DNA from: Jatrophihabitans sp. GAS493
GTDB taxonomy: Bacteria > Actinomycetota > Actinomycetes > Mycobacteriales > Jatrophihabitantaceae
Direction of reading: 5' to 3'
DNA length: 64,000 nt
Assembly (NCBI RefSeq): GCF_900230215.1
Contig: NZ_LT907982.1
Span: forward strand, 1,302,001 to 1,366,000
A program made the position numbers and the translations under genes. Shown in pieces: positions 44,623-64,000 of the stretch. The first letter of the stretch is position 1. The number at the start of each line of letters is the position of its first letter. The notes under the pieces are model-generated. The model saw only the letters and a list, made by a program, of their open reading frames with translations, had not been told where the DNA came from and made no database searches.

Positions 44623-45351
44623 TCAGCGCTCGTCGAACCCGCATTGCAGCTCAACCCGATGCACGGTGGCGACGATCTGCGGATCGGCCAGCGCGGTCCG
44701 CATCGCGGTGCCGGTGAACCACTCCTGCGCCCACTCGTGCTGATCGAAGAGGATCAGGATGAACGCCAACGTGCTGCTCGCCGGTAGCAGGGTGCGCACC
44801 GGTCGCTGACCGGGGAGGTCGATGGCCACGGCCCCTGATTCGCTCAACACGGAATCCTCGATGATGGCCCGCAGCCCGTAGGCGTCGCGCCCCGCCTCGA
44901 CCAGCTGTCGACGTAACCGCTGCACCGCCACCGCACGACCCGCCGGGGAGAGAGTGGGGGCAGCGATCTCCAGCAGATAGGCCTCGAAGGCACTCTGGCC
45001 CCGGCGGCTGTCGTAGAGCGTCTGCTGCTCAGTGGCGAAGCCGTGCCAATCCTGCAGGAAATTGCGGTGATCCTGGGCGATCTCCTCCTCGGTCGCCGCG
45101 TCGAAGGCGGCGACCCGGCCGGGGTGGCGGCGCAGCAGCACGTAGCGCCACCGAGAAGGCGGGGCGTCGAATCCGGATTCGCTCAGCCGCGATATCGCCA
45201 GCGCCGTGTGATAGGACTCGAAGGCGCCGGTTGCGCGCAGCATGCGCCGGGCCCAGACGGTGTGCCGCTGGCGGTAGTGCCGATCGCAGTCGGCGCTCGG
45301 CAGCGTCGAGGCGGGGGCGAAGAGCGAGACGGAAGCAGGGTGCATCGACAT
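44623..45351 (-). CDS. hypothetical protein at the edge of the catabolic island
   Basis: A 242-residue soluble protein I cannot assign. The part around residues 60-110 (WRYVLLRRHPGR, DHRNFLQDWHGF) and the C-terminal half (FILILFDQHEWAQEWF) loosely recall EthD-type dimeric alpha/beta barrels, possibly two in tandem. The ATG at 45351 is taken because GAAGGCGAG precedes it; a much longer open frame upstream is antisense to the CoA transferase. It is divergent from the CoA transferase across 69 bases, so they probably share control. Confidence 0.65.
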   Translation of the reverse strand: MSMHPASVSLFAPASTLPSADCDRHYRQRHTVWARRMLRATGAFESYHTALAISRLSESGFDAPPSRWRYVLLRRHPGRVAAFDAATEEEIAQDHRNFLQDWHGFATEQQTLYDSRRGQSAFEAYLLEIAAPTLSPAGRAVAVQRLRRQLVEAGRDAYGLRAIIEDSVLSESGAVAIDLPGQRPVRTLLPASSTLAFILILFDQHEWAQEWFTGTAMRTALADPQIVATVHRVELQCGFDER

Positions 45352-45397
45352 TTCGCTCGCCTTCGTAAGGGAGTCGGCAGGGTCTGCCGCTTTCCAT

Positions 45398-45414
45398 AAT
45401 TTAATCGTATAGTT
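45398..45414 (+). promoter_or_regulatory. shared AT-rich promoter element, copy A
   Basis: AATTTAATCGTATAGTT differs at only two positions from the copy upstream of livK (57848-57864). It includes TATAGT (45408-45413), which would serve as a -10 box and end 7 bases before the GTG of the CoA transferase, the spacing of a leaderless mRNA. Confidence 0.55.
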
Positions 45415-45420
45415 CGCAGA

Positions 45421-46593
45421 GTGATCCCAAACGCTGCCCTCTGCTGCCTCGATGACGTGCATGTCCTTGACTTCGGCATGAACATCGCCGGCCCCCAATC
45501 GACCAGCCTGCTCAGTGACCTCGGGGCCGACGTCATCAAGGTCGAGTCGCCGCAGGGTGACACCAGCCGCTCCTTCACGCCCAAGGTAGCCGGGCTGAGC
45601 GCGATGTTCGCGGCGATGAACCGGAACAAGCGCTACCTCGCGCTCGACCTCACCCATCCCAACGCCGCCGAAGTGCTCGATCCGCTGCTGCGGTGGGCCG
45701 ATGTCGTCGTGCAGAACCTTCGCCCCGGCAAGGCCGGTGAGCTGGGGATCTCGGCCGAACAGTGCCACGACATCAACCCGCGGATCGTGCACGCCAGCGT
45801 TGAGGCGTTCTATCCGGCCGAGCTGACCCGACCCGGCTACGACCTGCTGGTGCAGGCCGAGACCGGAATGATGAGTCTCACCGGAGATCCCGACGGTGAG
45901 CCGTCGCGGCTGCCGGGGAGCATCCTCGACCATGTCACCGGCCTCTGGACCGCATTCGGCGTCCTGGCCGCGTTGAACGGGACGCGCGATCGGGTCGCGC
46001 TGAACATCTCCATGAGTGACGTCGCGCAGACGCTGCTGGCCGACCGGGTCTCCGCCTATCTCCTCTCCGGCGACGTCCCGACCCGGATGGGGTCGGCGAT
46101 CGGCACCAGCACCCCGCTGCAGGCGTATCCGACGGCTGACGGGGAGATCGTCGTCGGCGCGGTGAGCGATGCGCTCTTCCGGCGACTCTGCGCGGTGGTC
46201 GCCCCGGACCTCAACCAGGAACCGGAGTTCGAGACGGTCGGCGGCCGGGTGGCCCACCGCGACGAGCTCAACCGGCGGCTCTCGGCGGCCTTCGCCGGTG
46301 ACTCCGCACAGGCCTGGTACGACCGGCTGGACGCCGTCGGCGTCCCCGTCGGGCGCGTGCGCACCATGCCTGATGCGGTGGCCCGCCACCGGGAACTCAG
46401 CCGCACCGGCCTGGTCGAAGTGCCGGGTATGGAGGGCATGGAGGTGGTGGCGAACCCGCTGGGGATGCGGCAGTCGCTGCCCTGTCCGGGCGCTCTCGGA
46501 GCCGACTCCGAGAGCATCGCCACTGAACTGCTGGGGCTGAGCAAGGAGCAGGTGCAGACACTCGTCGCCGACGGCGTGGTGCTGCACCGATGA
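45421..46593 (+). CDS. family III (CaiB/BaiF) CoA transferase
   Basis: A 390-residue acyl-CoA transferase that would activate a carboxylic acid by moving CoA from a donor. Landmarks are VHVLDFGMNIAGPQ, LGADVIKVESPQGD, GYDLLVQAETGMM, and the catalytic Asp170 in ILDHVTGLW. The GTG start has no ribosome site but sits 7 bases after a TATAGT box, so a leaderless transcript is likely. It overlaps the luciferase-like gene (ATGA) and opens a three-gene operon. It is probably the entry step of the island's pathway. Confidence 0.9.
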   Translation: MIPNAALCCLDDVHVLDFGMNIAGPQSTSLLSDLGADVIKVESPQGDTSRSFTPKVAGLSAMFAAMNRNKRYLALDLTHPNAAEVLDPLLRWADVVVQNLRPGKAGELGISAEQCHDINPRIVHASVEAFYPAELTRPGYDLLVQAETGMMSLTGDPDGEPSRLPGSILDHVTGLWTAFGVLAALNGTRDRVALNISMSDVAQTLLADRVSAYLLSGDVPTRMGSAIGTSTPLQAYPTADGEIVVGAVSDALFRRLCAVVAPDLNQEPEFETVGGRVAHRDELNRRLSAAFAGDSAQAWYDRLDAVGVPVGRVRTMPDAVARHRELSRTGLVEVPGMEGMEVVANPLGMRQSLPCPGALGADSESIATELLGLSKEQVQTLVADGVVLHR

Positions 46594-47558
46594 CGGTGTC
46601 CGACACCGGCGCTCGAGGGGTCCTCGTCGGCTCCTGGCCGCTGGGGATGCCGGCCGGTCCGGAGCACTTCTATGCCGACCTGGCCGCCGCCGTCGAGACG
46701 GGTGGCTTCGACTCGCTCTTCGTGGGCGACCATCTCTTCGCGGCCGGTCCCGGTCCGGACTCCCTGGCCCTGCTGGCCTACTTCGCCGCCCGGACGAGCC
46801 GGCTGAAGATCGGGACCTCAGTGTTACAGCTCGCACTGCGCGAGCCGGTGGCGGCGGCCAAACAGATCGCCACGATCGACGCCCTCAGCGGTGGGCGACT
46901 GCTGCTCGGAGTCGGCGTCGGCGGCGAGTTCGCCGATGAGTGGTCCGCGGCGGGGGTACCTACCGCCGGACGGGGTCGCCGCCTGGACGAGTGGCTCGAA
47001 CTCGCCTCCCAACTCTGGAGCGGCCAACCGGTCGATCATCAGGGTCCACTGCGGACGGTCGCGGGGGTGGTCGGCTCCCCGGCGCCGCATCGGTCCGGCG
47101 GCCCGCCGATCTGGGTCGGCGGCCGCTCCGAGGCGGCGCTGCAGCGGGCGGCCCGCCACGACGGCTGGATCGCCTATGCCTCTAGCCTGCGCCGCATTCG
47201 CGCCTCGGTCGAGACGCTGGCCGAGCTGCGCGCCGGCGGTGCCAGTGCCAGTGGCAGTGGCGGATTGGACGGCTACCCGATCTCACTCGTCCTGTGGACC
47301 TACATCGGCGCCTCCCGTGCGCAGGCCCGCCGCGGCGTGGCCGAGGTACTCGGGGCCCGCTACCGCCAGGACTTCGACCAATTCGTCGACTCCTTCTGTG
47401 CCGTAGGCGAGGCGGCGGAGGTGCAGGATCGGATCGCGGCGTTCCGGGAGGCCGGCGTGACCAACATCCTCTTCAATCCGCAGTGTCCGGCCGGGGAGTT
47501 CCTCGAGCAGGTGCAGCGGTTGAGCGAATTGGAGACAGCGCCGTGCCCGGTCCGCTAG
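46590..47558 (+). CDS. LLM class (F420-type) oxidoreductase
   Basis: A 322-residue luciferase-fold enzyme. GFDSLFVGDHLF, SGGRLLLGVGVGG and PPIWVGGRSEAAL are standard for F420- or flavin-dependent members. It is flanked in one operon by the CoA transferase and the racemase, with overlaps at both ends, so it probably oxidises the acid or its CoA ester. The cofactor cannot be settled from sequence. Confidence 0.88.
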   Translation: MTVSDTGARGVLVGSWPLGMPAGPEHFYADLAAAVETGGFDSLFVGDHLFAAGPGPDSLALLAYFAARTSRLKIGTSVLQLALREPVAAAKQIATIDALSGGRLLLGVGVGGEFADEWSAAGVPTAGRGRRLDEWLELASQLWSGQPVDHQGPLRTVAGVVGSPAPHRSGGPPIWVGGRSEAALQRAARHDGWIAYASSLRRIRASVETLAELRAGGASASGSGGLDGYPISLVLWTYIGASRAQARRGVAEVLGARYRQDFDQFVDSFCAVGEAAEVQDRIAAFREAGVTNILFNPQCPAGEFLEQVQRLSELETAPCPVR

Positions 47559-48709
47559 CGGGAGTGCGGGTCCTGGAGCTGGCCGGCCAGGGCGGCGTCC
47601 CGTTCGCCGGAATGGCGCTGGCCGACATGGGAGCCGAGGTGCTGCGCCTGGAGCGTCCCAGTGGGCGGGCGGTGAAACTCGTGCCCCCGCAGTTCGACGT
47701 CGTCGGCCGGGGTCGGCGCTCGGTCGCGATCGACTTGAAGGCCGACGGTGCCGCCGACCTGGTGCTGCAGCTCGTCACCACTGCTGACGTGCTGCTCGAA
47801 GGTTTCCGCCCCGGGGTGACCGAGCGACTCGGCCTGGGACCCGATGAGTGCCTCGCGGCCAACCCGTCGCTGGTCTACGCCCGCGTCACCGGCTGGGGGC
47901 AGCGCGGTCCGCGGGCGCTACTAGGCGGGCACGACATCAACTACATCGCGGTGACCGGGGCGCTGGCGGCGATCGGCGAACGTGATCGTCGGCCGGTGCC
48001 CCCGCTGAACCTGGTCGGAGACTTCGCCGGCGGTGGGCTCTCCGCCCTCGTCGGAATCCTCGCCGCGCTGCACAGCGTGACGACCGGGGGAGCCGGGCAG
48101 GTCGTCGACGTCGCCATGCTCGACGGCGTCAGCTCGCTGCTGAGCACGGCCTACGGCTACCGCAGCGCCGGAGCGACCAGCGATGACCGGGAGTCGAACT
48201 TCGTCGACGGTGGGTCGCCGCACTACCGCACCTACGAATGTCGCGACGGCGGCTACGTCGCGGTGGGCGCGGTTGAGCCGGTCTTCTTCGCCCGGCTCAT
48301 CGAGACGCTGGGCGTGGACGTCGATCCATCCGACCAGCTGGATCGCAGTCGCTGGGCGGCGATCACCGAAGCGCTGGCCGCGGCCTTCATGACCCGCGAC
48401 CGGGACGAATGGGCAGAGATCTTCGGTGATGTGGACGCGTGCGTCACCCCGGTGCTCTCACTGGTCGAGGCTCAGCAGGATCGACAGGTGCGGGCCCGGG
48501 ACATCCTCATCGAGCGGGCCGGGGTCATCCAGCCGGCGCCGTCTCCCCGCTTCAGCGCGACACCCTCGGCGGCTGGACTACCGCCGCGGGTGCCGGGAGA
48601 GGACACGGTCGAGGCCCTGCTGGATTGGGGCGTACCCCGCGAGCGGATCGACGGACTGCTGGCGGGCGGCGTGCTGCGGGATGCCTCAGCTCACCGTTCC
48701 GACGGGTAG
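47543..48709 (+). CDS. alpha-methylacyl-CoA racemase
   Basis: A 388-residue family III CoA transferase relative of the racemase branch. The three catalytic residues of the mycobacterial MCR enzyme (His126, Asp156, Glu241) appear at a constant offset of four: His130 in GGHDINY, Asp160 in VGDFAGGG and Glu245 in VGAVEPVFF. It would interconvert 2R and 2S methylacyl-CoA, which beta-oxidation of methyl-branched chains requires. It starts at a GTG inside the preceding gene (16-base overlap) and converges with the crotonase gene with 19 shared bases. Confidence 0.88.
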   Translation: MPGPLAGVRVLELAGQGGVPFAGMALADMGAEVLRLERPSGRAVKLVPPQFDVVGRGRRSVAIDLKADGAADLVLQLVTTADVLLEGFRPGVTERLGLGPDECLAANPSLVYARVTGWGQRGPRALLGGHDINYIAVTGALAAIGERDRRPVPPLNLVGDFAGGGLSALVGILAALHSVTTGGAGQVVDVAMLDGVSSLLSTAYGYRSAGATSDDRESNFVDGGSPHYRTYECRDGGYVAVGAVEPVFFARLIETLGVDVDPSDQLDRSRWAAITEALAAAFMTRDRDEWAEIFGDVDACVTPVLSLVEAQQDRQVRARDILIERAGVIQPAPSPRFSATPSAAGLPPRVPGEDTVEALLDWGVPRERIDGLLAGGVLRDASAHRSDG

Positions 48710-49482
48710 TTCGGCGGACGCCGCTGCAGGGTGGCCCGCACCGCCTCCTGGGAGTCCGGGTCGGCGCAGATGAGTGCGGTGAGGGACTGCTCGAAGGTGT
48801 AGCCCTGCTGCAACGGCAGGTTCTCGATGGTGTCCAGCGATCGCTTGGCCATCCGGATCAGTGCGCTGCTGTGGCGGGCGATCCGGGCGGCGTGCTCGTG
48901 AGCGGCGGTCAGCAGTTCGGCTTCCGGCACCACCGCGACGACCCCGCCGAGCCGCAGGAGCTGCTCGGCGGAGACGGCGTCCCCGCTGAGGTACATCCAG
49001 CGGACCCACGCCTCGGGTACGAGCCGAGCCAGGTGGCGGGCGCCGCCCATGATCCCGACCCCGATCTCGGGGGTGCCGAAGCGAGCGGTATCGGCGGCGA
49101 CCACGAAGTCGCAGGAGGCGGCCAGGGCGAGGCCGGTTCCCAGCGCCACGCCGTGTACAGCGGCGATGACCGGGATCGGTGCCTCCTGTACGGCGAAGAA
49201 GGCCGCTCGGACGTCGCTCATCCGGGCTTCGCTGTTCTCCGCCGAGAGGGTGGCGAACTCCTGCAGGTCATTCCCGCCGCAGAAGTGCCGCCCCGCGCCG
49301 GTGAGGATGATGACCTTCACTCCGGCGCCGAGAAGGGTGATGTCGGCGAAGAGCCGGCGGATCTCCCGGTACATCGCCTGGCTAACCGAGTTAACCGGCG
49401 GCCGCGCCAGGTACACCGTGGCGATCGCCCCGGCGCGCTCCCAGCGCAGATGCTCGAACCCGGTCTCCTCCGGCGGCGTCAT
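48691..49482 (-). CDS. enoyl-CoA hydratase/isomerase family protein
   Basis: A 263-residue crotonase-fold enzyme. The oxyanion segment is GAGRHFCGGNDLQEF, and the second Glu of hydratases is kept in FGTPEIGVG. The first catalytic Glu (in GGGCELA of classical hydratases) is replaced in ALGTGLALAASCD, so simple hydration is doubtful; isomerase or hydrolase activity is possible. It overlaps the LLM gene upstream by four bases and converges with the racemase. Confidence 0.87.
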   Translation of the reverse strand: MTPPEETGFEHLRWERAGAIATVYLARPPVNSVSQAMYREIRRLFADITLLGAGVKVIILTGAGRHFCGGNDLQEFATLSAENSEARMSDVRAAFFAVQEAPIPVIAAVHGVALGTGLALAASCDFVVAADTARFGTPEIGVGIMGGARHLARLVPEAWVRWMYLSGDAVSAEQLLRLGGVVAVVPEAELLTAAHEHAARIARHSSALIRMAKRSLDTIENLPLQQGYTFEQSLTALICADPDSQEAVRATLQRRPPNYPSER

Positions 49483-50432
49483 TCGCCGGCTCCGGCCGCA
49501 GGCTGGTCGGTCCCGGCGCCCCAGTCCCGGGACGAGACGAGCGGCTGCGCGCCGAGGTCGGCAGCGAGCTCGGCGGGGAGCTCATCGGCGCACCGCTCGA
49601 CCCACTCGACGGCCTGCTCGCACGACATGTTCGCGAAGTCGGCGTCGAGCACCACGAAATCCGCGCCGGCCGCGCTCAGCTCCTGCACGACGGACCGCGC
49701 CTCGACCGCCGCGACGACTCGGGGGCGCACGCCGACCAGCAGTTCACGACCCGGGCTGGTGCTCTGCTGAACTCGTCTGACCTCGGCCGCGAGATCCTTG
49801 AACTGCGCACCGCTGACGTTGCTGGCGTACCACCCGTCGCCCAGACGGACGGCACGGCTGATCGCCGCTGAGCTGTGCCCACCGACCAGGATCGGCAGCC
49901 TCCGACCCTGCGTCGGAGGCGGCGCGATCCCGATGGACGGGCCGCCGTCCGGCAGTGCCGAAGGGTAGGGCCCCCAGCAGGCCCGCATGGTGCGCATCGC
50001 CAGGTCGGTGCGCCGGCCGCGATCGCCCCAGCCCTGGTCAAGCAGGGCGAACTCCTCCTGCATCCATCCCGCGCCGATGCCGAGGATGAGCCGCCCGCCG
50101 GAGAGGACGTCCAGGGAGGCCGCCTGCTTGGCCGTGACGATGGGCTGGCGCAGCGGCAGGACCAGGACGCCGGTCGCCAGCTGGACACGAGTGGTCACCG
50201 CGGCCAAGTAGGAGAGCGTGACGAACGGGTCGATGAAGGCGGTCGAGGAGTCGAACGGCGGCTTGGCGGTCTCGCTGTAGGGGTAGGCCTCGGGCGGCCG
50301 CCCCGGCATGACGATGTGGTCGGAGACCCAGACGGATCCGAATCCCCGCTGCTCGGCCGCCCGGGCGACTCGCGCCAGCGCATCAGGGCCGGCCAGCGGC
50401 CCCCAGTTCGGAACTTTGATGCCGATATGCAC
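49479..50432 (-). CDS. LLM class (F420-type) oxidoreductase
   Basis: A second luciferase-fold enzyme of the island, 317 residues, with HIGIKVPNWGPLAGPD, GFGSVWVSDHIVMPGR and SGGRLILGIGAGWMQEEF. The start is the GTG at 50432 with GGAAGGAA upstream. It forms an operon with the crotonase and is divergent from the SDR across 120 bases holding a related promoter motif (50487-50502). Confidence 0.88.
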   Translation of the reverse strand: MHIGIKVPNWGPLAGPDALARVARAAEQRGFGSVWVSDHIVMPGRPPEAYPYSETAKPPFDSSTAFIDPFVTLSYLAAVTTRVQLATGVLVLPLRQPIVTAKQAASLDVLSGGRLILGIGAGWMQEEFALLDQGWGDRGRRTDLAMRTMRACWGPYPSALPDGGPSIGIAPPPTQGRRLPILVGGHSSAAISRAVRLGDGWYASNVSGAQFKDLAAEVRRVQQSTSPGRELLVGVRPRVVAAVEARSVVQELSAAGADFVVLDADFANMSCEQAVEWVERCADELPAELAADLGAQPLVSSRDWGAGTDQPAAGAGE

Positions 50433-50552: not shown

Positions 50553-51359
50553 ATGGGAACACTTGACGGCAGGGTGGCATTGGTGACCGGAGCCGGATCC
50601 GGAGTCGGTCGCGCGGTCGCACTGCGTTACGTGCGGGCCGGGGCGTCGGTGGTCGGGTTCGATCGCAACGCCGACGGCCTGGCCCGCAGCGTCGAGTTTA
50701 GCGACGGAGCCATGGTCGCCGCCGTCGGTGATGTCTGCGACCGGGCCACCCTCGATGCGGCGGTCGCCACCGCCGTGGAGCGGTTTGGAGGACTCGACAT
50801 CATCGCCGCGATCGCCGGTATCTCGAAGACCGGATCGCTGTTAGAGATGTCTGATGAGGACCGGGATGCGATTCTGGGCGTCAACCTGGTGGGGGTCTGG
50901 AACGCGGCGAAGGCCGGATTGCCGGCCCTGCTGGAGCGCGGCGCCGGCGGTCGAATCCTGGCCTGTGGCTCGATCGAGTCGGTGCTGGGCGGGGCGGGAC
51001 TGGCCGCGTACGTGGCCTCCAAGCATGGACTGATCGGATTGATCAAGTCGATCGCCCTGGAGCTGGCCCGGACCGGCATCACCGCCAACGTCATCTCCCC
51101 GGCCGGTGTGGACACCGAACTGCTGCGCGCCGTCGTCCCGCCGGCGAGTATCGCCCACATTGCCCACAGCACGCCGGTGGATCGGCTGAGCACGCCGGAG
51201 GAGGTGGCTGCCTTCTTCGAGTTCATGGCTGGACCGGAGACCGGGTACATGACCGGCGGCAATCTGGTCGTCGACGGTGGCGTCGCCCTGCTCAACAGTC
51301 ACACCACCGGGCAATCGTGGGCCGAGACGCCCGTGACCGTAGCTATTTCTGATAACTAG
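50553..51359 (+). CDS. short-chain dehydrogenase/reductase
   Basis: A 268-residue NAD(P)-dependent SDR. The cofactor motif TGAGSGVG is at 12-19, Asn111 in NLVGVWN, Ser140, and Tyr153/Lys157 in YVASK; the usual NNAG reads IAAIAG. The ATG at 50553 is used. Likely a hydroxyacyl-CoA or alcohol dehydrogenase in the island's pathway. Its stop codon begins the repeated promoter element of the transporter operon. Confidence 0.9.
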   Translation: MGTLDGRVALVTGAGSGVGRAVALRYVRAGASVVGFDRNADGLARSVEFSDGAMVAAVGDVCDRATLDAAVATAVERFGGLDIIAAIAGISKTGSLLEMSDEDRDAILGVNLVGVWNAAKAGLPALLERGAGGRILACGSIESVLGGAGLAAYVASKHGLIGLIKSIALELARTGITANVISPAGVDTELLRAVVPPASIAHIAHSTPVDRLSTPEEVAAFFEFMAGPETGYMTGGNLVVDGGVALLNSHTTGQSWAETPVTVAISDN

Positions 51360-51441: not shown

Positions 51442-51546
51442 ATGACTCGTCTTCGTCTCGCGGCCGAGGTCCCGGCTACTGGTCGCGACAGGCACAAGTG
51501 TCAGACAACTGGTGCGGCGACCCGACTGTCGGCGGTGAAATCGTGA
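51442..51546 (+). CDS. small leader ORF overlapping livH
   Basis: A 34-codon frame with GGAAGG 8 bases before its ATG ends in a TGA that overlaps the livH GTG (GTGA), the usual arrangement for translational coupling. The peptide has no recognisable family and is Arg/Thr/Ala-rich. It fills much of the otherwise long 183-base leader. It may be a regulatory uORF or only a coupling device. Confidence 0.4.
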   Translation: MTRLRLAAEVPATGRDRHKCQTTGAATRLSAVKS

Positions 51547-52424
51547 GCGACGCATTGGCTCAGGCCCTGGTCGGCGCCTTGGTGCTGGGTAGCCTCTACA
51601 CGGTCGTCGGTATCGGCTTCGTCATCCTGTACAAGGCCACCCACGTCCTGAACTTCGCCCAGGGCAGCCTGATGCTGCTCGGCGGCCTCATCTTCTTCAC
51701 GATCAACCAGAGCATGGGCGTTCCCTGGCCGTTTGCCATGGTGCTCAGCCTGCTGGCCATGTCGGTGATCGGCTCGGCGCTCTATCTGGTCTTCTTCCGG
51801 CGCCTGGTCGGCGCGAAGGAGTTCACCCTGGTAATCGCCACGCTGGGTCTCAGCGTCGTACTCCTAACCGTCGCGCTCATCGTCTGGGGGCCGGGCACCC
51901 GCACCATGCCGGAGCTGCTCTCCCGCCAGACGCTCGTCTCGTTCGGCAACCTGAAGTTCTCGAGTATCGACGTCTTCTCCATCGCCACCGCGCTCGTGGT
52001 CGTCTTCGTACTCGACCTGAGCCTGCGCCACACCCGGATCGGCATAAAGATGCGCGCGGTGGCCGACGAGCCGCTGCTGGCGTCGCTGATGAAGGTCAAC
52101 GTCAACCGGATGTCGGCTATCGCCTGGGGGATCGCGGCGTTCTGCGCCGGGGTCGCCGGTATCGCCTACTCGATGCGGCTGTCGATCGACCCGGTCGGCT
52201 TGACCGGACTCGGGCTGCTGGCCTTTCCGGCGGTGCTGCTCGGTGGCCTCGACTCGGTACGCGGTGTGCTGGTCGGCGGCTTCCTCCTGGCCATCGTGCA
52301 GAGCGCCGCCACCTACATCTTCGGCGGTATCTGGGCCGACGTCTCGGCCTATGCGGTGCTGCTGGTCGTCCTGCTGGTCCGTCCGCGGGGCTTCTTCGGA
52401 TCACGGACGGCGGTGCGGTTGTGA
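51543..52424 (+). CDS. livH: branched-chain-amino-acid-type ABC permease LivH
   Basis: A 293-residue inner-membrane permease with about eight helices; LYKATHVLNFAQGSLMLLGG and MRAVADEPLLASLMKVNVNR are the LivH signature blocks. The GTG start is supported by the family N-terminus. It overlaps the following fused gene by four bases. In catabolic islands such importers often carry aromatic or steroid-like acids rather than amino acids. Confidence 0.93.
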   Translation: MSDALAQALVGALVLGSLYTVVGIGFVILYKATHVLNFAQGSLMLLGGLIFFTINQSMGVPWPFAMVLSLLAMSVIGSALYLVFFRRLVGAKEFTLVIATLGLSVVLLTVALIVWGPGTRTMPELLSRQTLVSFGNLKFSSIDVFSIATALVVVFVLDLSLRHTRIGIKMRAVADEPLLASLMKVNVNRMSAIAWGIAAFCAGVAGIAYSMRLSIDPVGLTGLGLLAFPAVLLGGLDSVRGVLVGGFLLAIVQSAATYIFGGIWADVSAYAVLLVVLLVRPRGFFGSRTAVRL

Positions 52425-56642: not shown

Positions 56643-57176
56643 GATTTAGGGCAAGAGCCGTTTGCCGAGATCGTCGCCCGGCTGAAGGTGCTGGAGGACG
56701 AGCGAGACCTGCGCCGCCTCCTCGCGCAGTACGCCTTCTACGCCGACACCGGGCGCTCTCGTGACTGGGTGGCTCTCTTCACCGCCGATGGCGCGATCGA
56801 CCTCGGAGACACCGTGCACTCCATGAGCGGCGCTGCTGCCCCCGACGGATACCCGAGCCGGGCCCGCTTCGTCGGCCATGAGGCGTTGCTCCTCGACTTC
56901 ATCACCGCACTGCCCCATCGCCGGGTCGAGCGCCGCTCGGCGCATCACACGACGAGCGGCCCCATCACCTTCGATATCGACGGTGACGACGCGATCGCGG
57001 TCGGCTACTCGGTGCTGATAGCCCGAGACCCGGACGGCTTCCACGTGGAGATGGCCGCCTTCAATCGCTGGACGTTTCGGTGTGAGTCCGGGCGGTGGCT
57101 CATCGCCGAGCGGAAGATGCGACCGATCGGCTCGGCGGAGGCGATCGGCATTCTGGAAGGCAGTTCGGGTGAGTGA
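56640..57176 (+). CDS. SnoaL-like (NTF2-fold) protein
   Basis: A 178-residue SnoaL-like protein: VLEDERDLRRLLAQYAFYAD and DWVALFTADGAIDLGD are the usual opening, and the C-terminus ends FNRWTFRCESGRWLIAERKM. These cone-shaped folds catalyse ring cyclisation, epoxide hydrolysis or dehydration, or bind ligands. A start 15 bases upstream (56625) is possible. It overlaps the VOC gene by eight bases. Confidence 0.82.
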   Translation: MDLGQEPFAEIVARLKVLEDERDLRRLLAQYAFYADTGRSRDWVALFTADGAIDLGDTVHSMSGAAAPDGYPSRARFVGHEALLLDFITALPHRRVERRSAHHTTSGPITFDIDGDDAIAVGYSVLIARDPDGFHVEMAAFNRWTFRCESGRWLIAERKMRPIGSAEAIGILEGSSGE

Positions 57177-57660
57177 CCCGGCGGCCGGAGCGGCGGGATG
57201 GCCGAAGCCGGCCATCCCGGTTCACATCGGTCTGGCGGTGGCTGACCTGGACGCCGCGATGGCGAAGTTCGGTCCACTGCTGGGTCTCACCTGGGGTGAA
57301 CCGGTGCGTGGACTGTGGCAGGAGTATCTGGTGGCTGGGTCGCGGGTGCGCTGGTCGCTGAGCTACGTCAAGTCAACCGTCGGGCAGCCGCAGATCGAAC
57401 TGCTGCAGGGTGGACCAGGGTCGACGTGGCACACCGACGCCTCCGGCGCGCTGCACCACTACGCCTTCGCCACGCCCCGCCCGGCCGCCGATCGCCGCCG
57501 GTTCCTCGGTCTCGGATGGCGGCTGGACCTGTGCCGCGCCGACGCCGACCCCGACACGTCCTTCGCATATCTGACCCGCGCCGGAGACGTGCGCGTCGAG
57601 CTTGTGCCGATTGACTCGACTCCGGTGCAACCGGTGTCCCAACAAGGAGGAAGAGCATGA
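57169..57660 (+). CDS. VOC superfamily (glyoxalase/dioxygenase fold) protein
   Basis: A 163-residue protein of the vicinal-oxygen-chelate fold: IPVHIGLAVADLDAAMAKFG opens the first module, and GALHHYAFATP provides a metal-site His in the second. It could be an epimerase, lyase or dioxygenase; methylmalonyl-CoA-epimerase-like action is one option. The GTG start overlaps the SnoaL-like stop, and the gene overlaps the ferredoxin by four bases. Confidence 0.8.
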   Translation: MSDPAAGAAGWPKPAIPVHIGLAVADLDAAMAKFGPLLGLTWGEPVRGLWQEYLVAGSRVRWSLSYVKSTVGQPQIELLQGGPGSTWHTDASGALHHYAFATPRPAADRRRFLGLGWRLDLCRADADPDTSFAYLTRAGDVRVELVPIDSTPVQPVSQQGGRA

Positions 57661-57854
57661 AAGTTATCGCTGACGACACCAGATGCATCGGCTCCGGCCA
57701 GTGCTACCTACAGGCGCCGGGTGTCTTCGACATCGACGACGAGGAGGGGACCGTCGTCGTGCTGCAGGAGCAGCCGCCGGTCGAGTCGGAGCGTGACGTA
57801 CGCGCGGCGGCGGAGATCTGCCCGTCCGGCGCGATCAAGGTTCTCGAAATTTAG
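57657..57854 (+). CDS. [3Fe-4S] ferredoxin for P450
   Basis: A 65-residue ferredoxin with cysteines 10, 16 and 55 in CIGSGQC and CPSGAI; the fourth cysteine position is Ser13, as in 3Fe-4S ferredoxins that serve bacterial P450s. AAGGAGGAA precedes its ATG. The divergent P450 is its likely partner. Its stop codon starts the repeated element that precedes livK. Confidence 0.93.
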   Translation: MKVIADDTRCIGSGQCYLQAPGVFDIDDEEGTVVVLQEQPPVESERDVRAAAEICPSGAIKVLEI

Positions 57855-57939: not shown

Positions 57940-59142
57940 ATGTATCAGGCACGTTTCACAGCAGTCCTAGCAGTGGCGGTCGTGACGTCGGTGACGCTCG
58001 CCGCCTGTAGCAGTGGAAGCAGTAGTGGTAGCGCCAGTGGAGGCGGCGGCGACTATCAGGTCGGGTTCAACTCAGACCTCTCCGGCAAGTACTCCCTCAA
58101 CGGGGTCGGCCAGCGAGACGGTTACAAGGCGTACTTCGACTACGTGAACAGCAAAGGCGGTATCAACGGCCACAAGGTGAATGTCAACGTCACCGACGAC
58201 GCATCCGACGTCACCCGCGGTACCACCAACACCACCCAGCTGATGACGGCCAAGAAGGTGTCGGCGGTCGGCGGGTACATCCTGAGCAACGTCTGTGGGG
58301 CGGCGGCGACGATCGCGGCGACCAACAAGGTGCCGATCAACTGCGGTTCGCTGGCCGAGGACCTGCTCAACCCGGCCAAGCCGTTCGTGTACTCCGCGGC
58401 GATCTCGCAGAACATGGAGGCCGGCCCGATCTTCAACATGGGCAAGACCCTCGTCGCCGACAAGCCCGCACCCAAGGCGGCGATCATCATCTTCGCCTCC
58501 GCGGCGAGCGTCTCGCTGCAGCAGGGTCTCGAGCGTTACGTGAAGTCGGCCGGTTGGAATCTGGTCGCCAACCAGTCCGTTCCGCTGACCGCGACCGACG
58601 TCAGTGCCCAGGCGGCCACCATCATCGCGGCTAAGCCGGACGTCATCATGGGTTCGCTCTACGACCCACTGGCCGTGTCGATGATGCGGGCGCTGAAGGC
58701 AGCCAATCTGTCGGTTCCGTTCGTGGACTACGACGGCGCGACCTACAAGAGCGGCCTACTCGCGCTGAAGGACCCGAACTTCTACCTCCTCTCAGCCAAG
58801 ACGGCTGACGGTGTCGGTGACACGCAGTACCTGAAGGACTATCAGGCCGCGGCGGCGATGGCCGGCAAGGATCCGACCACCCCGTTCTTCAACACCGGCT
58901 ACGTCCAGGCGCTGGAGATCGGCGAGGGTCTGAAGAAGTGTGGCTACCCGTGTGACGGGGCGAAACTGCAGACCACGCTCGACACGCTCGACGTCGACAC
59001 TCAGGGTGTCACCAGTGGCAACGTGACCTACACCGCCTCCAACCATGAGGCAGTGCACAGCGCCAGCTTCTACGTCTGGGACGCCAGCAAGAACGCAGCA
59101 GTCGTCGCCGCAAAGGATCTACCCGAAGGCGATGGCAAGTAA
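57940..59142 (+). CDS. livK: ABC transporter substrate-binding lipoprotein LivK
   Basis: A 400-residue periplasmic-type binding protein, lipidated at Cys23 (TLAAC), followed by a Ser/Gly linker and a Leu/Ile/Val-binding fold (VGFNSDLSGKYSLNGVGQRD; GYKAYFDYVNSKGGINGH). The ATG has GAGAGG 8 bases upstream. It completes the LivHMFG importer although its gene is separated by the P450 and ferredoxin units, and it shares their promoter element. The ligand is unlikely to be an amino acid given the context. Confidence 0.93.
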   Translation: MYQARFTAVLAVAVVTSVTLAACSSGSSSGSASGGGGDYQVGFNSDLSGKYSLNGVGQRDGYKAYFDYVNSKGGINGHKVNVNVTDDASDVTRGTTNTTQLMTAKKVSAVGGYILSNVCGAAATIAATNKVPINCGSLAEDLLNPAKPFVYSAAISQNMEAGPIFNMGKTLVADKPAPKAAIIIFASAASVSLQQGLERYVKSAGWNLVANQSVPLTATDVSAQAATIIAAKPDVIMGSLYDPLAVSMMRALKAANLSVPFVDYDGATYKSGLLALKDPNFYLLSAKTADGVGDTQYLKDYQAAAAMAGKDPTTPFFNTGYVQALEIGEGLKKCGYPCDGAKLQTTLDTLDVDTQGVTSGNVTYTASNHEAVHSASFYVWDASKNAAVVAAKDLPEGDGK

Positions 59143-59241: not shown

Positions 59242-59736
59242 TCAGTGCTGCAGTTCTGCGGCCTGCTTGTTGTCGTGACGGCTCCACCACTTGTCCGTCA
59301 GCGGCTCGCCGTGGGACCAGTCGTAGACGCACTGGCGATGGGTGATGGCCCAGACGCCGCCCCGCCGTTCGAAGGCGTCGAGGTAGCGCCCGGCATTCAT
59401 ATAGTCGCGAGCGCCGCTGTCCTCATTGACCGTGAGAACGCAGACGAAGTAGGACTGGCAGTCGGCCCGGTCGCCGTCCACCTCGATCTCGGTGTTTCCG
59501 ATCAGGTGAAAGTTGATGGCTACCGGTGAGTTCCCCACGAAGACCGGTGAGGTGCTGCTGAGGTACTCCCGGATCGGGCCGTTGAAGCCCTCGTGATCCT
59601 CGGTGGCGTCCTCGTGGTAGCAGGAGAGGGCGGAGGCGAGGTCGCGGCTGTCGGTGGCTCGGGCCCGCCGGTACAGCACTCGCTGGATTGCGCGCTCGTC
59701 CAATAGTCGTTGTAACTCGTTGCGGTCGAGATCCAT
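59242..59736 (-). CDS. SnoaL-like (NTF2-fold) protein
   Basis: A 164-residue SnoaL_4-type protein: LLDERAIQRVLYRRARATDS, DLASALSCYHEDATEDHEGF and a Trp/His-rich C-terminus (ITHRQCVYDWSHGEPL). This branch is frequent in steroid and aromatic catabolic clusters and is close to dehydratases. It is divergent from the UGSC gene; its promoter shares a motif with livH. Confidence 0.83.
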   Translation of the reverse strand: MDLDRNELQRLLDERAIQRVLYRRARATDSRDLASALSCYHEDATEDHEGFNGPIREYLSSTSPVFVGNSPVAINFHLIGNTEIEVDGDRADCQSYFVCVLTVNEDSGARDYMNAGRYLDAFERRGGVWAITHRQCVYDWSHGEPLTDKWWSRHDNKQAAELQH

Positions 59737-59822: not shown

Positions 59823-60359
59823 ATGGTCGCAGTCCTATCGCCGCAACCAGCGCGGGTGAAGGTGAGCAAGGCGAAGTGTCCGCCGGTTGGCGGCCTGCGC
59901 GGCAAGCGGGTTGGCCTGCGGCGTGACCGGTTCTGGCTGTCTTGGGACTGGATCACCGACGAGTGGTCGCAGCTGCTGGAGAAGGACGGCGCCGAGGTCG
60001 TCATCTGGCGCGCGCCGGTCGGCAAGGGTGACAAGGAGATGGTGGAGGGCGGCGAAGAGTACGTCGAGTTCCTGGCCGCCATTGATGTGGCAGTGAGCGG
60101 CTTGGGCAACTGCGGCTCCTGCACGCTCTGGGCGATCCATGACGCCGTCGGGGCGCTTGACACCGGGCTGCCGACGGCCGCCGTGGCCAGTGAGCACTTC
60201 GAACCGCTGGCCCGCACGCTGGCCGCTCAGCGCGGGCACGATGATCTGCGGCTCAAGATCATGCCGTACCCCATTGAGGGGAAGCCGGAGGACGAGGTGC
60301 GCCAGATCGCCCGGGACAACTACGAAGACCTCCTCGCCACCTTGGGGGCCACTCGATGA
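59823..60359 (+). CDS. UGSC-motif protein (Cys form)
   Basis: A 178-residue protein with the motif GNCGSCTLW (Cys97 and Cys100), the cysteine version of the UGSC pattern known from selenoproteins; the codon is TGC, not TGA. The opening KCPPVGGLRGKRVGLRRD and the motif in the second half match what I recall of that family. The role is unknown, perhaps a thiol-based reductase or lyase. GGAGG precedes the ATG at 59823. It overlaps the next gene by four bases. Confidence 0.75.
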   Translation: MVAVLSPQPARVKVSKAKCPPVGGLRGKRVGLRRDRFWLSWDWITDEWSQLLEKDGAEVVIWRAPVGKGDKEMVEGGEEYVEFLAAIDVAVSGLGNCGSCTLWAIHDAVGALDTGLPTAAVASEHFEPLARTLAAQRGHDDLRLKIMPYPIEGKPEDEVRQIARDNYEDLLATLGATR

Positions 60360-61435
60360 CGGCAACGCTGACCGGCGAACGCGTCGAGGTCCCCGACGAC
60401 GTGGTCGCCTTCTCCGAGGACGCGCTGCGCCGGGGCTGGTCGGATGGCCTGCCCTGCGTGCCGCCGACCGAGGAGCGCGTGCAGGCCTACGTCGAAGCAT
60501 CTGGACTGGATGCCCAGCACACGCTGGGGATTCTCTACCCGCTGGGCATCGATTGCACGGTGGAGTTACTGGCCGTCAACGCGGTCATGGCCGGCGCCCC
60601 CGCCGCGGCGATGCCGCTGATGGCGGCCTGCGTGTCGGCGATGGCCGACCAGGCCTTCGATCTGGCTGGAATCAACGCGACCACGGCCTCCGTCGTACCG
60701 GCGTTCGTCGTCAGTGGACCGGTACGCGACGAGCTGGGTCTGCCATACAAGCACTCGGCGATCGGAGGCGCGGCCGGTCCGGCGCCGGCCATCGGCCGTG
60801 CCCTGCGCCTGCTGGTCCGAAACGTCGCCGGACAGGTGGCCGGTCTCAGCTCGGAGTCCGTCTTCGGCCAGCCCGGACGGGTCACCGGCATCGTCACATC
60901 GGAGTGGCTGGAGGAGTCCCCCTGGCCATCGCTGGGCGAGCGCCGCGGTTTTCCGGGCGATTCGGTCACCGTCTTCGGCGTGCTCGGCACCGCGAACATT
61001 CTCAACAGCTACGGAAGCAGCGGCAGCGAGATCCTCGAAGTCGTCGGGAAGTCGCTCTCCTACATGGGCAACAACAACATGGACCACTCGGCCCAGTTCG
61101 CCCACCAACTGGTTGCGCTGAACCCGGTATGGGCGCGCATCGTGGCTCGGGAGTTCCCGGACATGCAGGACGTCCAGGAGCGGCTGTACCACCACTCGGC
61201 GGTGCCGATCGAGAACTTCCCCGAATCCCTGCACGGCCCGCTGCAGGAGGCCCACGACGTACGGTCGGACGGGAAGGTGTACCTGATGGACACACCGGAG
61301 GACGTCTCCGTCATCGTCAACGGCGGCAAGGGGAGTCTGCACGCGTGCATGTTCCCGGCGATGTCGAACATGCTGCCGGTGACCCGCTCACTGAACCCGG
61401 AGACTTGGCAACCACCGACCGGCACGAGCGACTGA
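60356..61435 (+). CDS. conserved protein of unknown function, partner of UGSC protein
   Basis: A 359-residue soluble protein with no domain I can name. It has RRGWSDGLPCVPPTEERV near residue 22, then Ala-rich helices, a Gly-rich turn (AIGGAAGPAPAIGRAL) and GNNNMDHSAQFAHQLVALNP late in the chain. I recall similar sequence fused to UGSC domains in single proteins, so this is probably the other half of a two-subunit version. The start overlaps the UGSC stop. It may be an enzyme subunit of the island's pathway. Confidence 0.7.
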   Translation: MTATLTGERVEVPDDVVAFSEDALRRGWSDGLPCVPPTEERVQAYVEASGLDAQHTLGILYPLGIDCTVELLAVNAVMAGAPAAAMPLMAACVSAMADQAFDLAGINATTASVVPAFVVSGPVRDELGLPYKHSAIGGAAGPAPAIGRALRLLVRNVAGQVAGLSSESVFGQPGRVTGIVTSEWLEESPWPSLGERRGFPGDSVTVFGVLGTANILNSYGSSGSEILEVVGKSLSYMGNNNMDHSAQFAHQLVALNPVWARIVAREFPDMQDVQERLYHHSAVPIENFPESLHGPLQEAHDVRSDGKVYLMDTPEDVSVIVNGGKGSLHACMFPAMSNMLPVTRSLNPETWQPPTGTSD

Positions 61436-61471: not shown

Positions 61472-61729
61472 GTGACAGCAACTACTGAGGACCTGCGCGC
61501 GGCCATCACCGAGATCCAGAGCATCGTCTCGGCCGACGGCGCCCGACTGGATGTGGTCGACGAGACGCAGAGTGCGGTGCGCTTCCGCCTCGACCTGAGC
61601 GATGCGTCGTGTGCCGACTGCGTGCTGCCGCCGGCCAGCCTGCTCGACGTCGTGCAGCTGTCGATGCGCCGGCGGACCGGCGATGACGATCTCACCGTGC
61701 GCATCGACGACCCCCGCGACGGTGAGTGA
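61472..61729 (+). CDS. small NifU-like CxxC protein
   Basis: An 85-residue protein shaped like the NifU C-terminal domain: an opening helix, a strand VRFRLDLSDASCADC with the CxxC pair, and a last helix. True NifU domains carry GxCxxC and transfer Fe-S clusters; here the context differs and the CxxC is followed by LPPASL. It follows the UGSC pair by 36 bases and overlaps the P450 by eight bases, so a redox or Fe-S role with them is plausible. Confidence 0.6.
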   Translation: MTATTEDLRAAITEIQSIVSADGARLDVVDETQSAVRFRLDLSDASCADCVLPPASLLDVVQLSMRRRTGDDDLTVRIDDPRDGE

Positions 61730-62999
61730 CGGGGACGACCCTGGGCGGACGGGCCCGAGTGGACTGAACGGGCTGGCTCTGCTGCCGGTTGACCTGCAGT
61801 CGGTCGACGTCCTCGAATGTCCTTACCCGGCCTATAAAACGCTGCGCGAATCCGCACCGGTCTTCCACAGCGACCGGGGCTACTGGGTGGTGACGCGCTA
61901 TGAGGACGTGGCCGCGATCCTGCTGGACACCGCGCGCTTCAGCGGCTACGTGCCGCGCCCACCGGACGCCGAGATCGACGCCATCCTCGACGAGGGCTAC
62001 CCCGAGATACCAACCCTGATCTCGGCCGACGCGCCGATGCACAGCCAGTACCGGGCGTTGGTGAACAAGGCGTTCCTACCCGGCCGGGTGGCGCAGCTGG
62101 AGTCGGAGATCGCCGCGATCGCCGACGAGTTGATCGATCGTTTCATCGACGCCGGCCGGGTCGAGCTGATCGGCCAGTTCGCCGTCGGTCTCCCGCTCAC
62201 CGTGATCGCCGACGCGCTCGGGGTCTCCCGGGCGGACCTGCCGACCTTCAAACGGTGGAGTGATGACATCGTCGCCCCGCGATCGGGCCTGCTCACCCGC
62301 CCCGAGTTGCTCGCCGCGACCCGCAGCCTGGTCGAGATGCAGCAATACATGGCGCAGCGCTGCGAGCAGCGTCGCCGCGAACCGAGGGACGACCTGCTCA
62401 CCGACCTCGTGCAGGCCACCTTCGATGCCGGCGATCGAGCCGGCGAGCAGCTGAGCCTGAACGAGGTGATCGGAATCATCCGGCAATTACTGGTTGCCGG
62501 CAACGAGACGACCACCTCGCTCATCGCCAACGTGATGACCCTGCTGATCGAGCACCCGGAGCAGATGCAGGCCGTCCGAGCCGACTCGGCCCAGCTGACA
62601 CCGATCATCGAGGAGTCGCTGCGTCTCGATGCACCGATCCAGATGCTGCCGCGCCGGGCCCGGGTGGACGTCGAGATCGGCGGTACCAGGGTGGCGGCCG
62701 GAGATCTGCTCTACGTCGTCTACGCCTCGGCCAACCACGATGAGAGCCGATTTGCCGTTCCCGCCGAGTTCGATCCGCAGCGTGCCAATATTCGCAAGCA
62801 CCTCGCTTTCGGCAAGGGCGCGCACTTCTGCGTCGGTGCATCGCTGGCCCGGGGGGAGGCCCGGATCGCCTTCGAGCGACTTCTGAGCCGGGCCACTGAC
62901 TGGGCGCTGGCGACCGACCGGGACGAACCGGTGCGGCGAGGGCTCTCCATGCAGTTGCGTGGCCTCTCCCATCTCGACCTGACCTTCCGAGCTCGCTGA
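61722..62999 (+). CDS. cytochrome P450
   Basis: A 425-residue P450 with I-helix VAGNETTT, K-helix EESLRL and heme loop FGKGAHFCVG. The GTG at 61722 lies inside the end of the small CxxC gene, giving tight coupling. It overlaps the SDR by one base (TGATG). No second ferredoxin is adjacent; the 3Fe-4S ferredoxin at 57.7 kb may serve both P450s. Confidence 0.92.
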   Translation: MSDGDDPGRTGPSGLNGLALLPVDLQSVDVLECPYPAYKTLRESAPVFHSDRGYWVVTRYEDVAAILLDTARFSGYVPRPPDAEIDAILDEGYPEIPTLISADAPMHSQYRALVNKAFLPGRVAQLESEIAAIADELIDRFIDAGRVELIGQFAVGLPLTVIADALGVSRADLPTFKRWSDDIVAPRSGLLTRPELLAATRSLVEMQQYMAQRCEQRRREPRDDLLTDLVQATFDAGDRAGEQLSLNEVIGIIRQLLVAGNETTTSLIANVMTLLIEHPEQMQAVRADSAQLTPIIEESLRLDAPIQMLPRRARVDVEIGGTRVAAGDLLYVVYASANHDESRFAVPAEFDPQRANIRKHLAFGKGAHFCVGASLARGEARIAFERLLSRATDWALATDRDEPVRRGLSMQLRGLSHLDLTFRAR

Positions 63000-63742
63000 T
63001 GGGCGTGCTGCTCATCAGCGGGGCCGCCGGCGGCATCGGTGCGGCACTATGTGAGTCGCTGGCCCGGCGCGGACACACCGTGGTCGGCGGCGACATCGCA
63101 CCCGGACGGCCGCCGGGGGCGGCGGCGACCATGCATCTGGACGTCACCGACGCCGGGTCGTGGGCCCAGGTCGTCGCCGCGGTCGGTGAGCGCTACGGCC
63201 GACTCGACGGGCTGGTCAACAACGCCGGAGTGCTCGGAGTGGGTAGCCTGCTCGACCTCTCCCCGGCCGACTTCGACGCTGTCTGCGCGGTGAATCAGCG
63301 GGGCTGCTTCCTCGGGATGCGCGCGGCGGCGGCGTCGATGCGCCACACCGGCGGCGGGTCGATCGTGAACCTCTCCTCGGTGGCCGGCCTCGGCGGATCG
63401 GCCGACCTCTTCGCCTATACGACGACGAAGTGGGCCGTGCGGGGTATGACCCGATCGGCCGCGCTGGAGCTCGGACCGTTGGGTATCCGGGTCAACGCGG
63501 TACTGCCGGGAACCGTCGCCGCCGGGCTGGCCGACGGGGTCGATGACCAGGCCCGGGCCGAATTCTTCGAGCGTCTGCCGCTGGGGCGAAAGGCTCATCC
63601 GGTCGAGATCGCCGACGCCGTGGCCTATCTGCTGGGGCCGGAGAGTAGCTATCTGACCGGCACCGATCTGGTGGTCGACGGTGGTCTCAGCGCCCGCGTG
63701 CCGATGCCACCGCGCCTGAGCCCGCCTGAGCCCGCCTGCTAG
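62999..63742 (+). CDS. short-chain dehydrogenase/reductase
   Basis: A 247-residue SDR with GAAGGIGAA, NNAG, Ser in NLSSVAG and YTTTK. It is last in the operon that begins with the UGSC gene, so it may oxidise the alcohol made by the P450 before it. Its stop overlaps that of the convergent lyase (CTAG). Confidence 0.9.
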   Translation: MGVLLISGAAGGIGAALCESLARRGHTVVGGDIAPGRPPGAAATMHLDVTDAGSWAQVVAAVGERYGRLDGLVNNAGVLGVGSLLDLSPADFDAVCAVNQRGCFLGMRAAAASMRHTGGGSIVNLSSVAGLGGSADLFAYTTTKWAVRGMTRSAALELGPLGIRVNAVLPGTVAAGLADGVDDQARAEFFERLPLGRKAHPVEIADAVAYLLGPESSYLTGTDLVVDGGLSARVPMPPRLSPPEPAC

Positions 63743-64000
63743 CGGGCGCGGGCCACCAGGCTGCGGGCCTTCTCGTAGTCGTGCACGAGCACCGTCTCAC
63801 CGCTGGCGGTCAGGGCGGCCGGGCGGCCCTGGGCGAGTACCTCTTCGTAGAGCTCGATCAGCTCCTGGGCCGCCTCGATCTCCTCGGCGCTGGGTGTGAA
63901 GATCTCATGGATGATCGCGACGTGCGGCGGGTAGAACGTCGAGAGCGCGGTGAAGCCCTGCCGGCGTGACTCCACGCCCCGACGGCGTACCTCCGCGTAG
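63739..64000 (-). CDS. CitE-type (HpcH/HpaI) lyase, C-terminal part
   Basis: Only the last 87 codons are in the window; the frame runs past the right edge. The segment RQGFTALSTFYPPHVAIIHE followed by IFTPS is the CitE C-terminal block, where many relatives read G.AIHP.QI..IN..F.P. It may be a malyl- or citramalyl-CoA lyase, an enzyme suitable for releasing acetyl-CoA or pyruvate at the end of the island's pathway. Confidence 0.8.
   Translation of the reverse strand, partial: YAEVRRRGVESRRQGFTALSTFYPPHVAIIHEIFTPSAEEIEAAQELIELYEEVLAQGRPAALTASGETVLVHDYEKARSLVARAR

Follow-up and report, generated by a model that had tools for sequence, protein, structure and literature searches.

The window analysed here is a stretch of 64,000 nucleotides from Jatrophihabitans sp. 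GAS493, comprising bases 1302001-1366000 of a 4.88-Mb single-contig genome. Its right-hand part opens a 59-kb gene island that runs beyond the window end, and the left part of that island, a 35-kb block at 45421-80097 (window numbering, extended past 64000), is conserved in Nocardioides caldifontis, which belongs to a different family. We propose, with the arguments about evenly balanced, that the block encodes the breakdown of a methyl-branched carboxylic acid, as follows. The predicted proteins would import the acid, load it on coenzyme A (CoA), epimerise its 2-methyl group, remove a 4-hydroxyl by phosphorylation and elimination, and cleave the chain thiolytically. The island consists of known kinds of enzyme together with one orphan trio (a UGSC-family protein, a 359-residue partner and a NifU-like protein), and the pathway that we draw from its gene content, extent, conservation and residues is a proposal.

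Conservation of the Block in Nocardioides caldifontis

Genes were called with a simple codon-position script and their starts are approximate. Conservation was judged by reciprocal best hits at E 1e-5 against 50 kb of N. caldifontis. Twenty-six of the 35 called genes of 45421-80097 have a reciprocal best hit, all inside one 34.8-kb segment (NZ_VHIB01000001.1, about 941-976 kb) and at 39-81% identity, with the gene order rearranged relative to the island. The same comparison with a separate 50-kb N. caldifontis segment of 46 genes, the control, gave seven reciprocal best hits, one at 40% and none higher. Over the first 50 kb there are 30 hits in total, and the four outside 45421-80097 are ordinary, at 33-39%. 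Because 26 of 35 genes fall in one segment, against 7 of 46 in the control, the stretch from 45.4 to 80.1 kb is judged to be one set, conserved beyond chance, on a single genome pair.

The shared genes begin with a CoA transferase, an alpha-methylacyl-CoA racemase, two LLM enzymes, a short-chain dehydrogenase/reductase (SDR), the transporter genes livKHM-FG, a cytochrome P450, a ferredoxin, two SnoaL-like proteins and the UGSC trio. They continue with another CoA transferase, an aldehyde dehydrogenase, a GntR regulator, a kinase, an acyl-CoA dehydrogenase (ACAD), a CMD-like protein, a pair of ACADs, a thiolase and an OB protein. The N. caldifontis block has extras of its own, namely a ferredoxin-reductase-type protein, a MaoC hydratase, a crotonase and a disulfide-reductase-type FAD protein.

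The first-pass annotation of the window had described these genes as one functional set, and their conservation as a unit bears this out; in the one genome pair compared, they are not split among unrelated loci. The enzyme classes that it named are all present at 45.4-64.0 kb, recognised by hidden Markov model (HMM) or solved-structure matches or, for the SDR at 62999-63742, by GxGxxG and BLAST. What it called the UGSC set we take to be the UGSC protein, the 359-residue partner and the 85-residue NifU-like protein. Its membership was drawn too widely for the crotonase, the first LLM enzyme, the first SnoaL-like protein, the P450 at 61683-62999, the SDR at 62999-63742 and the CitE-type protein, for which the N. 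caldifontis segment yields no reciprocal best hit.

A Kinase and an ACAD11/LvaC-Type Dehydrogenase

We infer from residues of the ACAD, from the nearby APH-type kinases and from a described two-step reaction that a 4-hydroxyl would be removed through a 4-phosphoacyl-CoA. The ACAD at 74619-75926 is of the ACAD11/LvaC type and is 80% identical to its N. caldifontis orthologue. It scores 227.8 bits to ACAD11 and 237.2 bits to the putative ACAD 4hr3, against 156.5 bits to the best ordinary ACAD. Residues R626, H634, R637 and the catalytic Asp D753 are named in ACAD11 phosphate handling in PMC12440821, and the two-step reaction is described in PMC11342911. By alignment and a pattern test on nine ACADs from the island and N. 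caldifontis, three proteins carry equivalents of all four residues: the ACAD at 74619-75926, its N. caldifontis orthologue and another ACAD of the island, at 95055-96239. The other six of the nine (three from the island, three from N. caldifontis) do not have the pattern. The HCMR motif of ACAD11 is kept in the ACAD at 95055-96239.

The APH-type kinase at 70731-71753 (PF01636) matches the ACAD11 kinase domain, a comparison made for this kinase only. The HGDxxxxN motif is present in three kinases: this one, its N. caldifontis orthologue and a further island kinase at 96232-97617 (PF01636). In N. caldifontis the kinase and the signature ACAD adjoin.

The closest known systems are mammalian ACAD10/ACAD11 and the lva operon of Pseudomonas putida, with its LvaA kinase and LvaC ACAD; the lva set and levulinate catabolism are described in PMC6692424. 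The island is like them in combining an HGDxxxxN APH-type kinase with an ACAD that carries the R626/H634/R637/D753 residues, and it differs in that the module is embedded with a racemase, a P450, a Liv importer and the UGSC trio. The locus suggests that the 4-phosphoacyl-CoA route of levulinate breakdown and ACAD10/11 may also serve branched acids in actinobacteria, with the participation of a P450 and a racemase.

A stretch of a Streptomyces sp. NBC_00080 plasmid (NZ_CP108236.1, 426-451 kb) resembles the island in having a racemase-type GHDxxY protein, a CoA transferase, a P450, a VOC protein, an LLM enzyme, an amidohydrolase, an aldehyde dehydrogenase, a thiolase with OB protein, the signature ACAD and a kinase. 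In the part read, no Liv importer is annotated, and patterns for CGSC and for motifs of the UGSC partner found nothing. Clusters on this plasmid and on a plasmid of Rhodococcus sp. DMU1 are alike in holding a P450, CoA transferases, a thiolase with OB protein, a phosphotransferase and an ACAD with an HHAMR helix. The plasmid pGD02.2.1 of Rhodococcus rhodochrous has the signature ACAD and a kinase; the portion read contains neither a P450 nor a racemase. This set, like the Streptomyces one, is uncharacterised.

In the right part of the island, the kinase at 96232-97617 lies beside the ACAD at 95055-96239 and carries a DUF6285 domain at its C-terminus. LvaB, the 12-kDa kinase partner, is presumably a DUF6285 protein. 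The segment 95055-97617 is a candidate for a second 4-hydroxyacyl-CoA module.

The Proposed Pathway and Its Alternatives

The steps that we envisage are as follows. The LivKHM-FG transporter, which has the two permeases, two ATPases and one binding protein of a branched-chain-type (Liv/HAAT) importer, would import the acid. A family III CoA transferase, either that at 45421-46593, which likely loads the acid on CoA, or that at 64638-65831, would form the CoA ester. The 4-hydroxyl would come from the P450 at 55348-56619 with the three-Cys ferredoxin, or from the action of an SDR on a 4-oxo acid. The racemase would yield the 2S-methyl form, which is accepted by acyl-CoA dehydrogenases. The kinase at 70731-71753 would then phosphorylate the 4-hydroxyacyl-CoA, and the ACAD at 74619-75926 would eliminate the phosphate to give an enoyl-CoA. 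The chain would be shortened by the ACAD pair at 76311-78505 and by the thiolase with its ChsH2-like OB protein at 78545-80097. The UGSC trio may perform one more thiol-dependent step.

Gene content supports the uptake, CoA activation, epimerisation and oxygenation that had been read from the window. Of the two kinds of substrate suggested at that time, a methyl-branched acid is favoured by the racemase alone, and an isoprenoid one finds no support of its own. The racemase (47564-48709) is firmly assigned by sequence: it matches MCR of Mycobacterium tuberculosis at E 4.4e-108, against 1.6e-34 for the best CoA transferase, and its GHDINY and LVGDF stretches align with those which we take to hold the catalytic pair of MCR, His and Asp.

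Several observations weigh against the proposal. The 35 called genes include nine for which N. caldifontis offers no reciprocal best hit: the six named above, the amidohydrolase, the SDR at 70054 and the CoA transferase at 72709. Close homologues of the UGSC partner are rare (see below), and co-conservation of the whole set therefore rests on one genome pair. LivK has remote solved relatives only. The kinase orthologues are just 44% identical, and the best solved match of the ACAD at 74619-75926, 4hr3, is an uncharacterised ACAD. HAMR replaces HCMR in this ACAD and its orthologue. In contrast to lva and ACAD10/11, kinase and ACAD are separate genes that lie 2.9 kb apart in the source genome, with no DUF6285 domain on the kinase at 70731-71753. 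Adjacency of a kinase and an ACAD proves nothing by itself, because a Sulfitobacter plasmid has an APH-DUF6285 pair beside an ACAD that is without the signature, and the ACAD of the Rhodococcus sp. DMU1 plasmid has the HHAMR helix in a stretch where patterns found neither the catalytic Asp stretch nor the kinase motif.

The alternative that survives best, and which we regard as possible but the less probable account, is that several catabolic operons without a common substrate have settled at one landing site as a mosaic, the 35-kb block then consisting of two or three modules kept together by chance or by being generally useful. The genes form several runs divided between the two strands, the order of the block differs between the two genomes, and the nine unshared genes also fit this picture. 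Moreover, the stretch from 80.1 to 103.6 kb, with a second thiolase, a CoA ligase, a kinase/ACAD pair, an HgmA-like cupin and a sugar-type importer, has just three reciprocal best hits, at 35-39%. A loose assembly is harder to reconcile with 26 conserved genes that all lie within 35 kb in a genome of a different family, and with a GntR regulator that is shared at 74%.

It seems unlikely to us that the substrate is a polycyclic acid such as a steroid or terpenoid. In such a pathway, P450s would hydroxylate the side chain or ring and an SCP2-type thiolase with its ChsH2-like partner would cut the side chain. The racemase would suit such a route, the P450 at 61683-62999 has chains labelled 'CYP125MRCA' among its nearest solved relatives, and the thiolase at 78545-79678 is, through its N. 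caldifontis orthologue, closest to benzoylsuccinyl-CoA thiolase (BbsB) and SCP2-thiolases, with an OB partner that matches zf-ChsH2. However, that P450 is not among the reciprocal best hits in N. caldifontis, and the conserved one, at 55348-56619, is nearest to TamI, which, like its other nearest P450s, we take to be an enzyme of secondary metabolism.

Improbable, too, is an enlarged version of the levulinate pathway that would handle short, unbranched 4-oxo or 4-hydroxy acids, with the racemase acting on a side intermediate: the kinase, LvaC-like ACAD, SDR and CoA ligase do correspond to the lva set, and on pGD02.2.1 of R. rhodochrous a phosphotransferase, the signature ACAD and a 'glucose 1-dehydrogenase' are consecutive and like lvaA, lvaC and lvaD in kind, but levulinate catabolism as given in the available part of PMC6692424 leaves no role for the racemase, P450, ferredoxin and two LLM enzymes that are conserved with the block.

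The UGSC Trio

The UGSC protein (59823-60359; PF24696, 109.3 bits against a cut-off of 25; 75% identity in N. caldifontis) has the CGSC, or Cys, form of the family motif. It is followed by the 359-residue partner, of no named family (60356-61435; no Pfam match at E 10; 77%), and by the 85-residue NifU-like protein (61472-61729; PF01106 at E 0.087, which is sub-threshold; 52%). All three are on the plus strand. Judged by sequence, they likely form one unit, because they are conserved together and because two kinds of gene fusion occur. A fusion of UGSC and partner, P0092, is one of at least 120 partner homologues among the matches listed. NifU-UGSC fusions account for 5 of 115 UGSC homologues among the matches listed, these bearing both Pfam labels, and three more were read by eye. 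In addition, a UGSC gene adjoins a partner gene in 16 of 20 sampled contexts, and one of the four exceptions had no UGSC call.

CGSC is invariant across 51 aligned UGSC rows. The island protein scores 70.9 bits to the NCBI equivalog NF041046, below its cut-off of 125. UGSC was placed among the major marine selenoprotein families, as likely thioredoxin-like, in PMC2398784 (2008), and a 2026 review (PMC13188914) calls a selenoprotein group that lists UGSC functionally largely uncharacterised. The AlphaFold model of the island protein appears to differ from the thioredoxin-like description: it is a confident five-strand alternating alpha/beta fold (pLDDT 92.8) with CGSC where a helix begins. The top structural rows for the model are common alpha/beta arrangements, NQO1 and WrbA-like proteins by Foldseek and MilB and DNPH1 at a second look. 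In a model of the fusion protein, the UGSC half is poor and the partner half good, and no convincing solved relative was found. UGSC has no match to PF07355 (GrdB/PrdB) at E 10. A profile-profile comparison of UGSC with 11 GrdB rows gives a probability of 7% and an E of 0.005 for the single pair.

It is tempting to propose, tentatively and with rather less conviction than the pathway itself, that the trio forms one enzyme complex of an undescribed class, based on Cys or selenocysteine on an alternating alpha/beta rather than a thioredoxin scaffold, and that gamma-oxygenated methyl-branched acids could not be broken down without the step it performs. If true, the island would give a widespread orphan selenoprotein family a metabolic job. 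UGSC lies here within a bounded, recurring gene set that includes a transporter and a regulator and suggests a class of substrate, and the function of UGSC thereby becomes testable.

The partner protein was used to trace the set in other genomes. A scan of named genomes, which depends on short exact peptide matches, had N. caldifontis (77%) as its sole match. The best named homologues are actinobacterial, one of them in a Jatrophihabitantaceae metagenome-assembled genome. Any match at all was found in 6 of 61 genomes (the source genome and five others), with none of the 60 relatives better than 4e-38. At 1e-50, 2 of 396 genomes had a match, the source genome and one at 35%. A further set of five genomes gave one, N. 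caldifontis itself. At 1e-60, a different genus of the order, sampled with 150 genomes, had a single homologue (51%), in surroundings unlike the island beyond single genes; among 341 genomes of the family of N. caldifontis, only that species had one. The source genome would have matched in this family scan and is not among its hits, which places the two genomes in different families. Closer homologues, among the matches listed in a protein-level search, sit mostly in metagenome contigs; close ones are also listed for Monashia sp. NPDC004114 and Rhodococcus sp. Eu-32, on contigs of 73 kb and 349 kb.

The source genome has a second, distant UGSC-partner pair at 4505449-4506928 (33% partner identity), with no island-type genes recognised around it. 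A UGSC gene in another genome (G528:C94:10862-11362) has one in-frame TGA inside the match and is possibly, by its sequence, a selenocysteine form in the same class. Across 396 genomes sampled from the phylum, 15 encode a full-length GrdB-family protein, and in 11 of the 14 loci that were retrieved the selenocysteine position is an in-frame TGA. Many genomes encode a short protein whose match is confined to the C-terminal third of GrdB. On the plasmid pFER4 of Paracoccus ferrooxidans, selA lies no more than about 8 kb, and selB 4 kb, from a partner homologue, in a neighbourhood that also includes sulfur-carrier genes.

Extent and Borders of the Island

The first-pass annotation saw neither a thiolase nor an acyl-CoA dehydrogenase. 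This holds within the window and not for the locus, and its guess that the absent beta-oxidation enzymes lie outside was right: the first acyl-CoA dehydrogenases and the first thiolase occur within 17 kb past the window end (74.6-80.1 kb), and more lie beyond. Acyl-CoA dehydrogenases, thiolases, a CoA ligase and an aldehyde dehydrogenase are all found within 27 kb past that end. The set is real, and what was missed is its 59-kb span to a tRNA-Ser border and the pair of kinase and ACAD11-like dehydrogenase, which is the most specific pointer to the route.

In the whole genome, the right boundary of the island is at 103.7 kb, where tRNA-Ser(GGA) (103668-103755, minus strand) is followed by the signal recognition particle (SRP) RNA gene ffs and dnaX; the island adjoins the 3' end of the tRNA gene. 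The 59-kb stretch is accessory, since both flanks occur without it in two of the three genomes of the family that were compared. In G006, the orthologue (61%) of the major facilitator superfamily (MFS) gene of the left flank is only 0.24 kb from the same tRNA. G001, which is of the same genus, keeps the dnaX side and a left flank of nine genes (67-96%), with 10.7 kb of unrelated genes between the tRNA and the MFS gene. In the third, G011, the 20 kb on the corresponding side of dnaX showed no MFS gene of this kind. It is likely that the stretch was gained at a tRNA hot spot; its absence in relatives may instead reflect loss there.

No exact direct repeat of the tRNA end was found, at 11 bases or more near the left end or at 14 or more in 30-103.6 kb, and the mean GC content at third codon positions is 0.861-0.869 inside the island against 0.868 outside. 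The acquisition is therefore probably not recent. No integrase was noticed among the gene calls, only part of which the HMM scans covered. The content of the tRNA-Ser/ffs/dnaX junction differs across three genomes (59 kb, 10.7 kb and 0.24 kb), and the junction is a probable insertion hot spot in this family.

Other Genes of the Island

Named genes between 45421 and the window end are on the plus strand unless marked minus, and percentages are identities to N. caldifontis. The open reading frame before the island, at 44623-45351, has no Pfam match. The family III CoA transferase at 45421-46593 (PF02515, E 5e-93) has CoA transferases as its nearest solved relatives and a reciprocal best hit at 64%. 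It precedes the first LLM-class (F420/flavin) oxidoreductase (46590-47558), which scores 168.4 bits to TIGR03619 against a cut-off of 166.9 and has no reciprocal best hit. The racemase (69%) comes next, then the crotonase, an enoyl-CoA hydratase/isomerase (48691-49482, minus; PF00378, E 1.2e-45), and a second LLM-class enzyme (49479-50432, minus; TIGR03619, 209.5 bits, over the cut-off; 49%). The SDR at 50553-51359 (74%) matches PF13561 from an internal start and has its GxGxxG when read from the ATG at 50553.

The transporter genes are livH (51543-52424; PF02653, E 2.9e-31; 73%), a fusion of the LivM permease and LivF ATPase in a single chain (52421-54361; PF02653 and PF00005; 69% over 586 aligned residues), livG (54358-55263; PF00005, E 1.6e-28; 73%) and, farther on, the LivK-type binding protein gene (57940-59142; PF13458, E 9.6e-47; 58%). 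Between livG and livK lie the conserved P450 (55348-56619, minus; PF00067, E 4.4e-25; 50%), whose N. caldifontis counterpart follows the NifU-like gene, the first SnoaL-like protein (56625-57176; PF13577, E 3.3e-20), a VOC/glyoxalase-fold protein (57169-57660; PF13669, E 2.6e-13) and the small ferredoxin (57657-57854; PF13370, E 1.3e-13; reciprocal best hit at 39%), whose three Cys residues (10, 16 and 55) have a 3Fe-4S pattern. The VOC gene was missed by the gene caller and hence stands outside the reciprocal comparison; its start was read by eye. The conserved SnoaL-like protein (59242-59736, minus; PF13577, E 4.5e-21; 71%) precedes the UGSC trio. The second P450 (61683-62999; PF00067, E 7.4e-30), the second SDR (62999-63742), which has a GxGxxG start and BLAST similarity to N. 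caldifontis SDRs, and the HpcH/HpaI (CitE-type) protein follow. The last (63739-64638, minus; PF03328, E 1.9e-21 on the full gene) is cut by the window end at 64000.

Past that end come the CoA transferase at 64638-65831 (81%), the aldehyde dehydrogenase (66002-67492; reciprocal best hit), the amidohydrolase (67576-68844), the GntR regulator (68922-69698), an SDR (70054-70734), the kinase, an LLM enzyme (71836-72708; reciprocal best hit), a CoA transferase (72709-73944) and a SnoaL-like protein (74022-74510; reciprocal best hit). After the signature ACAD, the block closes with the CMD-like protein (75916-76299), which is below the model cut-off, the two ACAD-family proteins and the OB protein (79675-80097), all with reciprocal best hits, and the thiolase (76%) between them. 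BLAST or sequence reading, rather than an HMM, is the basis for the SnoaL-like protein at 74022, the CoA transferase at 72709 and the second ACAD of the pair, and likewise for the SDRs, LLM enzyme, crotonases and one ACAD after 80.1 kb.

Beyond 80.1 kb, an SDR and an LLM enzyme precede the CoA ligase (82667-84205). An SMP-30 lactonase and a CoA transferase then lead to the HgmA-like cupin (87082-88194), which is remotely like homogentisate 1,2-dioxygenase (E 1.2e-10 to a solved one). An alpha/beta hydrolase, the second thiolase (89505-90713), crotonases and ACADs follow. After the kinase at 96232-97617, the sugar-type ABC importer and an HMG-CoA lyase (102675-103595) complete the island.

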